Translations under genes and position numbers: made by a program
DNA from: Nitrospirota bacterium
Lineage (GTDB): Bacteria > Nitrospirota > Thermodesulfovibrionia > Thermodesulfovibrionales > Magnetobacteriaceae
Direction: 5' to 3'
DNA: 43,852 nt
Assembly: GCA_015233895.1 (NCBI GenBank)
Contig: JADFXG010000027.1
Span: 1 to 43,852, forward strand
Part shown: in pieces, positions 23,094-27,299 of the stretch
How positions within the stretch are numbered: the first letter of the stretch is position 1
How the letters are laid out: each line of letters opens with the position of its first letter
The notes under the pieces: model-generated
The model's database searches: none
What the model was told of the DNA's origin: nothing
Seen by the model: only the letters and a program-made list of their open reading frames with translations

Positions 23094-23181
23094 CTTAAGG
23101 GAGAGGGCGTTGCCCTCTCCCTTAGACCCTCTCCCACAAGGGGTTTTAAACCCCTTGACCCCCGGTTTTGGTGTTAGCGAT
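23094..23181 (+). repeat. Double-hairpin 3' repeat, copy 1 (truncated)
   Basis: First hairpin: AAGGGAGAGGGC gtt GCCCTCTCCCTT, a perfect 12-bp stem. A linker AGACCCTCTCCCA follows. Second hairpin: CAAGGGGTTT / TAAACCCCTTG. A conserved tail GACCCCCGGTTTT ends near GCGAT, where a different repeat begins. It follows the nuoG-like stop in the same orientation and may serve as a transcript 3' end, although no long T-run follows. Confidence 0.8.
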
Positions 23182-23191
23182 CATTCCAAGC

Positions 23192-23226
23192 CGTCATTGC
23201 GAGGAGCAAAGCGCCCTTGCAATCCC
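23192..23226. repeat. CGTCATTGCGAGG-type dispersed repeat
   Basis: CGTCATTGCGAGGAGCAAAG followed by CGCCCTTGCAATCCC forms a hairpin with ATTGCGAGG-like and CCTTGCAAT arms. Repeats of this type are widespread between genes in many bacterial genomes (recalled, not searched). It abuts and appears to cut short the double-hairpin repeat upstream. Confidence 0.65.
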
Positions 23227-23247
23227 CTCCACACATTAAGTTATAAT
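23217..23247 (+). promoter_or_regulatory. Candidate promoter of the CHAT-STAND gene
   Basis: A perfect TATAAT lies at 23242-23247 with TTGCAA at 23217-23222, 19 bases apart. The -35 part lies within the dispersed repeat. Transcription would begin near 23254, about 32 bases before the ATG at 23286. Confidence 0.35.
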
Positions 23248-23285
23248 TTGGATAGTAAATTCTTGGGATAACGAGGACGAGAGCT

Positions 23286-25373
23286 ATGCAATGGAAAGAC
23301 GTTACGCTTAATATTTCTGACAAACAACGAACGCGCTTAAAACAACTCGGTGCACAATTTACCGATGCGATGGAAAATAAGGGGCTAATCAAATGTGATG
23401 TCCCTGTGTCTCTTACAGAAGAGCTTACAGAGATTATCAATGCCAACACTGAAGTCAGAGCAAATCTTAAAGACGCTTATGAAAACAATAACCATTATGT
23501 GTTGCGGCTGATTGACAAAGATAATGAAATCCTAAATCTCCCGTGGCCGCTTGTAAGGGAAACAAATCACTTTAAACAGCTTGTTGACATCAAAAGTCTG
23601 CATATAGTAAAAACACCAACTCCGATATTTGATAAAAATTATTCTGATTTTACACCACAAGTAGCAGCGCCATTAAAAATCCTGATTATGATTTCCTCGC
23701 CAACTGATTTAAAACTGGAACAGCGTCTCTCATATGAAGATGAGGAGTACAGTATTTTAAAAGCATTTGAACCGCTGCTTAAAACCGGCCATGTGCAAAT
23801 TGACTATACTGATGACGGTTCCCTTGAGGCATTAGAGTCAAAACTTAAAAACAAAGATAACAAATACCACATTCTGCATTTTTCCGGACACGGTTCATTT
23901 AAGGGTTCACAGGGGACATTGTGTCTTGAAGATCATAATACTTTACAAGAGACGCGTGTACCTGTAACAGATTTAGATTTTGCAAAGGCGGTTAATGCAA
24001 AACCCGATTATAAAATCCCACTTGTTGTGTTGTCATCGTGTAAGACCGCTCAGGGCAATTCAGAAAAGATATTAAGCGGTGTAACTAACAAGCTTATAAA
24101 TATTGAAACACCGTCTGTTATCTCAATGGGAATGTCTGTGTCAGATAGACATGCAATACGTTTCACAGCAGAGCTTTACACAGAACTCGCAAACGGGCTG
24201 TCTATCCCTGAGGCTTTCTCAACCGCTATGAAACGCCTGAAAATTCATGAGCAACAACAAGCTGCCAATGGCGGCTATGTAACACAACAATGGATGATTC
24301 CAAATCTCTACGTCTCACGTAAAATTGAAAAACTCGTGGACTGGGATAGCGCTCCTGTTCCCTTGAAATTGACAAACTATCAATATGTGACCGAGGGCAA
24401 ACAAATATCGTTAGCTCACAAGGCGGGTTTTATGTTTGTCGGGCGCAGGGCTGAGAAAGCAAAAGTATTTGAACCGTTTTTTGATCGGAAACCTATAATG
24501 CTGAAGGGTCAGGGAGGAGTCGGTAAAAGCACAATGGCCGAATATATGGTTCAACGGGCTATAACAAAGGATCCTGCTAAGACCGTTCCGGTTATTATCA
24601 CTCATGAGGTGCGCTCGATTGACGATGTTTTAAAAGTTATAGAAGCTGCAATGTTAAAAACCGGCTCTGAAAAAATGGTGAATATTACAATAACATCAAA
24701 ATCTATTCCAGAGGCGATACTTCGGCTTGATACAATATTGAGAGTTTTTGCAACAGACTATGACCCCGTTTTAGTGTTTGACAACCTTGAAACATTTCAG
24801 GATGTTTCAACAGGTTTGTTTAAAGCAGAATATAATGACATTTACGAGGTTATAAAGCATCTGTGTAGTGAGAAAATCTTACAGTTGGTTTTAACCGGCA
24901 GATACTCAATTCCCGGACTTGCAAATGTAATTGAGGTCAACTTAAACAACATCGGGTTTAACGATTATTGGAAAAAGTGCCAATATCTGGAGTTGTTTGA
25001 AATTCATAATGAGCTAAACAAGAAATTCTATTTAGATACGATTTTTGATAAGCAAGAGGCCGAATTTGTCGATCTGGTTAAATTTCTGTATGAAAGCTTA
25101 GGCGGGAATTTCCGGGCGCTTGAATTCTTTAACGAGATTTATAAGAATAAGCGAACAGAAATCACAGAATCTCTTAAAACGATAAAAAGTATGAAAGCGG
25201 TTTTAGCTGCAGCTGTTACTGACATAAAATCTGAGATGGCGCTGAATCTTGTTTTTAGAGAATTACTAAAGCTGGTTAACGCTGGTCAAAAGCGGGTTTT
25301 GTATCTGCTTTCCAATTTCAGGATTCCGGTTCAACTTAAGGCGTCCAAGTGCAGCCTGAGGGACAAGTGCTAA
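23286..25373 (+). CDS. CHAT-domain protease fused to a STAND-type NTPase (N-terminal part of a split gene)
   Basis: A 695-residue protein. After an N-terminal region, a CHAT caspase-like peptidase domain (about 130-345) has the catalytic pair H202 (HFSGHG) and C252 (LSSCKTA). A STAND/NACHT-like ATPase follows, with Walker A G408-S415 (GQGGVGKS) and Walker B ending at D499 (LVFDN). The frame then enters a winged-helix-like segment (VLYLLSNFRIPVQLKA) and stops at 25373 in the middle of it. The remainder of the winged helix and the TPR domain continue in another frame from 25349. Family members are sensor-activated proteases of bacterial conflict or cell-death systems, where TPRs sense the trigger and CHAT cleaves a target. 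The ATG has GAGGA about 8 bases upstream. Confidence 0.8.
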   Translation: MQWKDVTLNISDKQRTRLKQLGAQFTDAMENKGLIKCDVPVSLTEELTEIINANTEVRANLKDAYENNNHYVLRLIDKDNEILNLPWPLVRETNHFKQLVDIKSLHIVKTPTPIFDKNYSDFTPQVAAPLKILIMISSPTDLKLEQRLSYEDEEYSILKAFEPLLKTGHVQIDYTDDGSLEALESKLKNKDNKYHILHFSGHGSFKGSQGTLCLEDHNTLQETRVPVTDLDFAKAVNAKPDYKIPLVVLSSCKTAQGNSEKILSGVTNKLINIETPSVISMGMSVSDRHAIRFTAELYTELANGLSIPEAFSTAMKRLKIHEQQQAANGGYVTQQWMIPNLYVSRKIEKLVDWDSAPVPLKLTNYQYVTEGKQISLAHKAGFMFVGRRAEKAKVFEPFFDRKPIMLKGQGGVGKSTMAEYMVQRAITKDPAKTVPVIITHEVRSIDDVLKVIEAAMLKTGSEKMVNITITSKSIPEAILRLDTILRVFATDYDPVLVFDNLETFQDVSTGLFKAEYNDIYEVIKHLCSEKILQLVLTGRYSIPGLANVIEVNLNNIGFNDYWKKCQYLELFEIHNELNKKFYLDTIFDKQEAEFVDLVKFLYESLGGNFRALEFFNEIYKNKRTEITESLKTIKSMKAVLAAAVTDIKSEMALNLVFRELLKLVNAGQKRVLYLLSNFRIPVQLKASKCSLRDKC

Positions 25374-26635
25374 CAGACTTAGATAGCGCTCTTTCATATC
25401 TGGGCAATCTGACTCTTATTGAGATTTCAACGGTTAAGACAGACGATACAGAGACAGTTAAATACTATTTCGTAACGCCGATAATCGCCGATTTATTGAA
25501 AGAACATGACGGCTTAATGTCAAATGAGGATACACTGAAAAAGACTGGATTCCCGCTCTGCATGGGGTCGCTGAGCCCCGGGAATGACAAAGAGGGGATC
25601 ACTTCCTTTTCTGTCATTCCTGCGGAAGCAGGAATCCATTCCCTTAAAGTCAACTTTTCCGATAAACTCGCTGGTGATTATTACGATGATGTTGTTAATA
25701 ATTTTGATGGCGGTTTAACGGAACATGAGGAGGCATTCTATCACTACCACAAAGCCAGAGTAAAAGAAAAGATTAATGAAATCGGCTCAAGACTGTCTCG
25801 CTATTATTATGACAGCTCATTGTATTCAGCAGCCTTCCATTATTGTAAAGCCGTTTATGAATTACTCGGGTTGGAGTCAGATTTACATGTTTTAAATTAT
25901 CTGGGGTTAATTCTTCAATTATATTGCGACCTTGACGGAGCACTAAAGATATTTTTAGAGGTCGAAAAAATTACAAAGGCTAAGGGCGATAAACAACAAG
26001 AAGGGGCTATCTTAAGTAATATTGGTCAGATATATCATGTCAAAGGCGATTATGACAGCGCTCTTAAGTATCTGCTTGATAGCTTAAAACTCAGTAAGCA
26101 GATTAATAATAAAAAGGGGGATGGGGTTACTTTAAATAATATCGGTGAGATTTATAGAGTAAAAGGCGATTATTACTCAGCGCTTAAGTATATGCGTGAT
26201 AGTTTAAAAAACAGTAAGGAGATTGGCGATAAACAACAGGAAGGGATCACTTTAAATAATATTAGCCTGATATATGATGCCAAGCGCGATTATGACGAAG
26301 CACTTAAATATCTGCTTGAGAGTTTAAAAATAGCGAGAGAGATAGGCGACAAGCAACAGGAAGGGGCTGCTTTAAATAATATCAGCCAGATATATGACGC
26401 CAAAGGCGATTATGACAGAGCGCTTCAGTATCTCCTTGAGAGTTTAAAAATCAGTAAGGAGATTGGCGATACGTTTGGTGTTGCGAACGCTCTTTTTAAC
26501 CTTGCGGCGTTATACGAAGCGACTGGCAAACCTGCGGAATCGGCACAGTGCCTAAAAGATGTAACAGAAATCAATAAGACGTTAAAGAGTTATGAAGTGT
26601 CACAGGCATTAAAGCGCGCAGGGATAGAGGGGTAG
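25349..26635 (+). CDS. TPR-repeat sensor part of the split CHAT-STAND-TPR gene
   Basis: A 428-residue frame opening at GTG 25349, overlapping the previous frame by 25 bases in a different phase. Its first 50 residues (DLDSALSYLGNLTLIE, then YYFVTPIIADLL) complete the winged helix begun upstream. A one-base deletion, or an assembly error, between 25340 and 25373 therefore best explains the split. The stretch at residues 67-97 is encoded by an inserted palindromic repeat. From residue 213 on there are TPR units of exactly 40 residues (NNI..IY..KGDYD.ALKYLL.SLK), then a short cap ending QALKRAGIEG. If translated alone it would lack ATPase and protease. I found no ribosome site for the GTG. Confidence 0.7.
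   Translation: MQPEGQVLTDLDSALSYLGNLTLIEISTVKTDDTETVKYYFVTPIIADLLKEHDGLMSNEDTLKKTGFPLCMGSLSPGNDKEGITSFSVIPAEAGIHSLKVNFSDKLAGDYYDDVVNNFDGGLTEHEEAFYHYHKARVKEKINEIGSRLSRYYYDSSLYSAAFHYCKAVYELLGLESDLHVLNYLGLILQLYCDLDGALKIFLEVEKITKAKGDKQQEGAILSNIGQIYHVKGDYDSALKYLLDSLKLSKQINNKKGDGVTLNNIGEIYRVKGDYYSALKYMRDSLKNSKEIGDKQQEGITLNNISLIYDAKRDYDEALKYLLESLKIAREIGDKQQEGAALNNISQIYDAKGDYDRALQYLLESLKISKEIGDTFGVANALFNLAALYEATGKPAESAQCLKDVTEINKTLKSYEVSQALKRAGIEG
25546..25638. repeat. GGATTCC/GGAATGAC palindromic repeat inserted in frame in the TPR gene
   Basis: A 93-base element bounded by TGGATTCCCGC and GCAGGAATCCA. It contains GGGAATGACAAAG and TTCTGTCATTCC as inner arms, so it folds into a large hairpin. It is 31 codons long, keeps the frame open and encodes the peptide SVIPAEAGIH. 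This peptide is a familiar translation product of the intergenic repeat of this type (recalled). Confidence 0.75.
25985..26464 (+). repeat. Four tandem 120-base units coding for TPRs
   Basis: Units begin at 25985, 26105, 26225 and 26345, each near GGCGATAAACAACAGGAAGG (the second reads AATAATAAAAAGGGGGATGG), with a partial fifth at 26465. The period is exactly 120 bases (40 codons) and the DNA is highly similar between units, which points to recent expansion or homogenisation of the sensor array. Confidence 0.85.
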
Positions 26636-26660
26636 GGGCGAATAATTATTCGCCCTTCAT

Positions 26661-26740
26661 ATCTGCGAAAATCTGCGCAATCTGCGGATAGAGATCTTTT
26701 AAAAGCTTTTTTTCCGCAGATGACGCAGATGAACGCAGAT
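26661..26740. repeat. Dispersed CCGCAGATG-type inverted repeat, copy 2
   Basis: The left arm ATCTGCGAAAATCTGCGCAA + TCTGCGG carries three ATCTGCG iterations. The right arm CCGCAGATGACGCAGATGAA + CGCAGAT carries three of the complement. The central loop contains AAAAGCTTTTTTT. It lies between the convergent TPR and DUF2283 genes, where it could end transcription from both sides. Confidence 0.75.
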
Positions 26741-26747
26741 AAAATTC

Positions 26748-26990
26748 CTAAAAGATAGCGAACTCCGACTCCTCTCCTGTTGCCTCATTAACGACCAGAA
26801 GTTTCCCTTTGTCAGCTTTATTAAGCTGTGCATTGGCATTCAATAGTTCTATGCCATAGATTGTACCGTCAGGTGCCATATCAATGTTAATCTCTTCACT
26901 CATCTTTATTGTCTCCACACCGGCAGGCTCCACACCTTCATGCAAACGTAAATATGCAATGTTGTATCTTGGATCGTAGCTTATTTTCAT
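26748..26990 (-). CDS. DUF2283 family small protein
   Basis: An 80-residue protein opening MKISYDPRYNIAYLRL, with a later stretch INIDMAPDGTIYGIELLNA. This is the characteristic pattern of the DUF2283 family: short beta-rich proteins of unknown function, often next to defence or toxin-antitoxin-like genes. It is convergent with the TPR gene, with the iterated ATCTGCG repeat between them. The ATG lacks a strong nearby ribosome site; GAGGAG lies about 17 bases upstream. No partner toxin is visible beside it, so I give no functional role. Confidence 0.72.
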   Translation of the reverse strand: MKISYDPRYNIAYLRLHEGVEPAGVETIKMSEEINIDMAPDGTIYGIELLNANAQLNKADKGKLLVVNEATGEESEFAIF

Positions 26991-27102
26991 AAAACCGTTC
27001 AGTAGCTCCTCGTTCTGTTAACCGCTCCTTCGCATGAGGGTGAAATATTATCATTAACCGCCCCAAATATTGCCATCACAAACCATTATGTTATCTTAAC
27101 TC

Positions 27103-27159
27103 AAATGTAAATACTCAGTAAAGTCACAGATGTCAAAGAGCGCAGGGATAGAGGGGTAG
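27103..27159 (+). pseudogene. Relic of the 3' end of a second TPR gene
   Basis: Bases 27125-27160 nearly repeat 26601-26636, the end of the TPR gene, including an exact 21-base match. In frame the relic reads VKSQMSKSAGIEG then stop, against YEVSQALKRAGIEG then stop in the intact gene. The frame is closed upstream by TAA at 27097. It appears to be what is left of a duplicated or recombined TPR gene. The rest of the 309-base spacer 26991-27299 shows no gene, only AT-rich sequence before ligA. Confidence 0.55.
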
Positions 27160-27299
27160 GTCTAATCCTAAATCAGAATTACTAAACGCTTACAACTGTC
27201 AATTAAACAACTGTAATTTGTGTTAATTTATATTTATCTGTGGTTTATTCCTTTTATTAATTTACCTTTTTGAAAACGAATTGGTATTATGAGTCACAT

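Follow-up and report, generated by a model that had tools for sequence, protein, structure and literature searches.

A "Candidatus Magnetomonas"-like CHAT-STAND-TPR gene is very probably a recent pseudogene of a duplicated, probably defensive family

Antiviral STAND proteins (Avs and bNACHT) and eukaryotic NLRs consist of an N-terminal effector, a central STAND switch, and a C-terminal repeat sensor (PMC10907252). In fungi, NLR-type and TPR-bearing CHAT proteases control gasdermins, with the CHAT domain tied to a repeat-bearing sensor (PMC12881547). The TPR-CHAT protein of type III-E CRISPR systems (Craspase) is likewise a CHAT protease with TPRs (PMC9729208). The gene described here is found in the window, i.e., the whole 43,852-nt stretch of Nitrospirota DNA that was analyzed (contig C27 of a 3.7-Mb genome). 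It combines a CHAT domain, a STAND-type ATPase and, after a change of frame, a TPR array (Table 1), and has very probably become a pseudogene recently; its family, the CHAT-STAND-TPR genes of "Candidatus Magnetomonas"-like Nitrospirota, is duplicated and probably serves in defense.

Table 1. Coordinates of the CHAT-STAND-TPR gene and its surroundings in the window
Feature	Position	Strand	Description
Lineage-specific insertion, junction of nuoG-like gene and ligA	23132-27241		Contains CHAT-STAND-TPR gene, DUF2283 gene, DUF4258 remnant
Putative promoter-like site	23217-23247	+	TTGCAA-19-TATAAT; upstream of 5 of 7 copies examined
ORF1	23286-25373	+	695 aa; N-terminal region, CHAT, STAND-type P-loop ATPase, first part of presumed winged helix, ~10 out-of-frame residues
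CHAT domain	23511-24251	+	PF12770, E=1e-23, residues 76-322
Catalytic H202	23889-23891	+	Within CHAT domain
Catalytic C252	24039-24041	+	Within CHAT domain
AAA_22/NACHT-like P-loop ATPase	24486-24911	+	PF13401, 27.2 bits (cut-off, 27)
Walker A	24507-24533	+	GQGGVGKST, residues 408-416; intact
Walker B	24768-24785	+	VLVFDN, residues 495-500; intact
Frame overlap with net one-base loss	25340-25373	+	Narrowed by alignment to ~25344-25352
ORF2	25349-26635	+	428 aa, GTG start; remaining presumed winged helix, linker, TPR sensor
Dispersed genomic repeat copy	25540-25662	+	In frame in linker, peptide SVIPAEAGIHS; 41 matches in genome
TPR array	25966-26464	+	Four copies of 120-bp units at exact 120-bp spacing, 71-78% identity
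DUF2283 gene	26748-26990	-	PF10049, E=3.6e-12; convergent with CHAT gene; also present in C20 and G001
DUF4258 remnant	26998-27066	-	~23 codons; ~200-bp internal deletion by alignment

The domain assignments of the first-pass annotation, namely CHAT with H202 and C252 intact, a STAND-type ATPase with intact Walker A and B motifs, and TPRs beyond the frame change, are borne out by profiles and motifs. PF12770 scores 84.6 bits on ORF1 (cut-off, 24), and the CHAT catalytic His/Cys pair is present in the window copy, with H202 in HFSGHG and C252 in LSSC. By profile and residues, the protein is a member of the CHAT peptidases, with predicted proteolytic activity. The STAND-specific models score below their cut-offs on ORF1 (NACHT, 19.4 of 26.7 bits; nSTAND3, 16.4 of 27.2 bits), and "STAND-type" is used here as a label for the motif and architecture, not as a proven class assignment. 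The next stretch matches no Pfam model; it is presumed to be a winged helix from its position and from a helix-hairpin-helix pattern, seen at low confidence in a poor structure model of an intact relative (four sequences; mean pLDDT, 46), in which the TPRs alone are trustworthy.

The TPR_12 profile matches ORF2 with an E value of 2e-44, and in the relatives these C-terminal superstructure-forming repeats share one ORF with the CHAT and ATPase domains. Copies differ in their number of 120-bp TPR units, a pattern that recombination within the sensor would be expected to produce. Inserts related to the linker repeat are found in the copies on contig C51 of the same genome and in genome G001 but are missing from C20 (also in the same genome), G002, and G003:C37 and G003:C101; in C51, the insert between the presumed winged helix and the TPRs has expanded into an S/T-rich array. 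The promoter-like site is present in the window, C20, C51, G001, and G003:C101 and missing in G002 and G003:C37. A PDB sequence search returned the CHAT-domain protein 8tl0 and unrelated TPR proteins and nothing else, and searches of phages and plasmids gave remote matches only.

ORF2 continues the gene of ORF1 in the -1 frame through the TPRs. An in-frame stop of the second frame at 25337 to 25339 confines the shift to the frame overlap, so that the ORF coordinates and the interval reported in the first-pass annotation hold. Six homologous copies are uninterrupted at the frame change, and alignment with them narrows the lesion to a net one-base loss with a few local substitutions. The openness of the ORF2 frame is beyond chance, because the other two frames of this stretch contain 32 and 55 stops, versus the terminal one alone in ORF2, and because the intact genes encode, in their second half, a homologue of the ORF2 product.

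Complete homologues in a single ORF are found in sister genomes of the same genus (998 aa in G001, 1125 aa in G002:C10, and 1112 aa in G003:C37, or L065). They show 70 to 74% identity over ORF1 and the same architecture without a frame change, whereas their TPR numbers and linkers differ from those in the window. In a fourth homologue, G003:C101, the reading frame is open up to the contig end. Among the homologues examined, the only split one besides the window gene comes from G008 and is interrupted elsewhere, in the TPR region. The single-ORF homologues rule out a two-gene organization as the family norm; homologues regularly encoded as two genes divided at this point, which the first-pass annotation had named as evidence against a frameshifted gene, were not seen in this comparison. 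The G003:C37 copy (L037 2087-5425) has an intact ORF with the catalytic cysteine replaced (LSSANTAQG) and is possibly an inactive or decoy member.

In sister genome G003, contig C27 is collinear with the window up to 23131 and from 27242 (90% and 95% identity, respectively), with ~110 unrelated bp in between; this nuoG-ligA locus of the G003 assembly (nDJH6bin1) itself differs from the window by about 5 to 10% and has no insert. Judged from these alignments, nearly all of the interval in between is a lineage-specific insertion. The segment from 23213 to 27160 is homologous to the sequence around the C20 copy, with its downstream DUF2283 gene. A phosphomannomutase-type gene adjoins both the C20 and G001 copies, and this common neighbor suggests that their position is the older site. 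In C20 and G001, the DUF4258 gene lies upstream of the DUF2283 gene and is full length (86 aa), the intact form matching PF14076. Since the DUF4258 gene in the window has also lost ~200 bp, the insert holds two decayed genes.

Another dispersed repeat, of the CCCTCTCCCTTAGACCCTCTCCC type, sits at the left end of the insertion (23096 to 23202); this genome and its sister genomes contain tens of copies of it. A short segment at 27120 to 27160, beyond the DUF4258 remnant, is similar to the 3' terminus of the CHAT-STAND-TPR gene (GCGCAGGGATAGAGGGGTAGG); it recurs near C20 and G001 and is perhaps a trace of an older tandem copy. The neighbors in the window are genes with housekeeping or regulatory functions; they code for a NuoG-like protein, LigA, NusA, a type II secretion F protein, a sensor kinase, and a sigma-54 regulator. 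The search for a neighboring CHAT substrate proposed in the first-pass annotation recognized no candidate among the window genes examined.

Each of the three close copies in this genome is broken at a different point (for the two besides the window gene, at L005 ~7242 and L004 ~1711-1757). In the C20 paralogue, codon 32 is an in-frame TAG; the C51 paralogue has one extra base in its CHAT region, and its sequence passes into a low-complexity array where the contig ends. G002 contains several fragments, some of which merely end at contig ends. Across the family, CHAT genes are patchily distributed, with 0 to 11 per genome.

For the window versus the other copies, a set that includes the C20 copy with its TAG, dN/dS is 0.15 to 0.25 upstream and 0.19 to 0.29 downstream of the break; for pairs without the window, the values are 0.14 to 0.23 and 0.12 to 0.28, respectively. 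Both halves have been under purifying selection in the past. In the first half, dS between the window gene and its paralogues is 0.7 to 1.2. Neither half contains an extra stop; with about 4% of random substitutions creating a stop, ~3 would be expected at a neutral divergence of 0.021 substitutions per site. Given the absence of extra stops, and the dN/dS values similar to those of the pairs without the window, the break is young or the halves have been kept under constraint, and these data alone fit either.

The same shift is present in a second assembly, nDJH6bin1 NODE_22415 (G003:C118, here L064), which has nine substitutions relative to the window in 3,698 bp. Eight of these lie within coding regions, four being silent and four changing the amino acid, and all nine are too few, and partly too gene-conversion-like, to measure current constraint. 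The differences cluster in short tracts; the tract at 24968 to 25008 matches the C51 paralogue, which suggests gene conversion or chimeric assembly. The nDJH6bin1 genome clusters with "Ca. Magnetomonas plexicatena" (PMC9376291); as G003 is classed in the same genus as the window, the window probably falls in or close to "Ca. Magnetomonas." Because the end of the L064 contig falls within sequence common to the filled and the empty site, and because its coverage is lower (4.5x versus 7.1x for G003:C37, per contig titles), L064 may derive from a co-occurring strain that belongs to the window's species and whose contig ended up in the nDJH6bin1 bin.

Recent inactivation, phase variation, and assembly error were the explanations offered in the first-pass annotation, and of these, recent inactivation is favored. 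That the gene is intact in the organism and the shift is an assembly or sequencing error is quite improbable: L064, a differing contig of another MAG whose read set is assumed to be independent, shares both the shift and the local substitutions, which makes an error in one assembly alone unlikely, and the break has no homopolymer and a local sequence unique among the copies. An error confined to the window contig was dropped as the main reading in view of this identical shift. Such an error would nevertheless be in keeping with the metagenomic origin of the relatives, with related copies in one genome that could yield chimeric contigs, and with the low coverage of L064, some of whose differences from the window lie in a tract like another copy. 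Least probable of all is a reversible switch, in which phase variation or programmed -1 frameshifting would give the full-length protein. Programmed frameshifting commonly goes in the -1 direction, and the two open frames share 34 nt, but the break site contains no homopolymer of 4 or more, no simple or tandem repeat, and no in-frame X XXY YYZ slippery heptamer, so that neither process has a visible substrate. Programmed frameshifting and slip-strand phase variation were rejected on these grounds, and the homologues do not use a frameshift.

A functional two-chain receptor, in which ORF1 (CHAT-ATPase) and ORF2 (the winged-helix remainder and TPRs) would reassemble after coupled translation, is unlikely as well. 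It would agree with the 25-nt overlap of the ORFs, with the GTG start of ORF2 at 25349 preceded by AAGG (25338 to 25341) at a 7-nt spacing, with two otherwise open and formerly constrained frames, and with a split common to two assemblies. However, none of the homologues examined is split at this point, the cut falls within a presumed compact domain, the insert holds a second decayed gene, and the sister copies are broken elsewhere. The more specific proposal of a naturally split NLR-like receptor, with CHAT-ATPase and sensor chains made through translational coupling, appears very doubtful; if true, the split would let the cell adjust or switch off an expensive death protease and yet keep it.

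The pseudogene reading starts from a disabling change relative to intact homologues, and recent inactivation is supported by the single-ORF relatives, the young break, the second lesion in the insert, and the broken sister copies. On the other side, with no more disabling changes in either half and with the promoter-like site retained, both halves could still be under selection, and the ORF2 start appears usable, with a modest ribosome-binding site. According to the pseudogene reading, a duplicated CHAT-STAND-TPR gene would have landed, together with its DUF4258 and DUF2283 neighbors, between nuoG and ligA, and this copy would then have been inactivated recently by the net loss of one base within the presumed winged helix. 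The broken copy would chiefly yield a fragment of CHAT and ATPase in which the switch is truncated and the sensor missing, most likely an inert or unstable product.

In the intact form, as judged from its architecture, the TPR region would detect a trigger, the STAND ATPase would then switch and oligomerize in an ATP-dependent manner, and the N-terminal CHAT protease would be activated and cleave its target; the outcome would probably be a defensive cell death or growth arrest. The trigger-activated role in defense or cell death suggested in the first-pass annotation is a prediction from architecture. The locus illustrates the gain and loss of copies of a CHAT-STAND-TPR receptor family in magnetotactic Nitrospirota. 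New insertion sites, variable TPR numbers, linker repeat insertions, and three differently broken close copies are signs of turnover; this pattern fits costly trigger-linked proteases with fast turnover and is unsurprising for defense-type genes.

As a whole, the window gene fits no PADLOC defense-system signature: the profiles give no Avs match, and the matches are limited to the CHAT part of SAVED_CHAT and to TPR-type models. The family shares its effector-switch-sensor order with Avs, bNACHT, and NLRs, the effector here being a CHAT protease with a predicted role in defense. The NLR-like scheme outlined above for the intact family is presumed by analogy with bacterial STAND proteins (PMC10907252) and fungal CHAT receptors (PMC12881547). 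Fungal gasdermin-controlling CHAT proteases likewise join CHAT to a repeat sensor, whereas no gasdermin was recognized among the neighbors examined here. In type III-E TPR-CHAT, the CHAT domain is C-terminal to the TPRs; in the window gene, it is N-terminal, with the ATPase in between, and no gRAMP gene is found among the neighbors examined (the nuoG-like gene and ligA adjoin). The same order of CHAT, AAA/STAND-type ATPase, and TPR array is found in a remote homologue encoded on plasmid pREC3 of Acaryochloris marina (WP_261892248.1; 1177 aa), which is annotated merely as a TPR protein. It shows 24% identity over residues 36 to 684 of the G001 homologue and combines all three parts in one uninterrupted protein.
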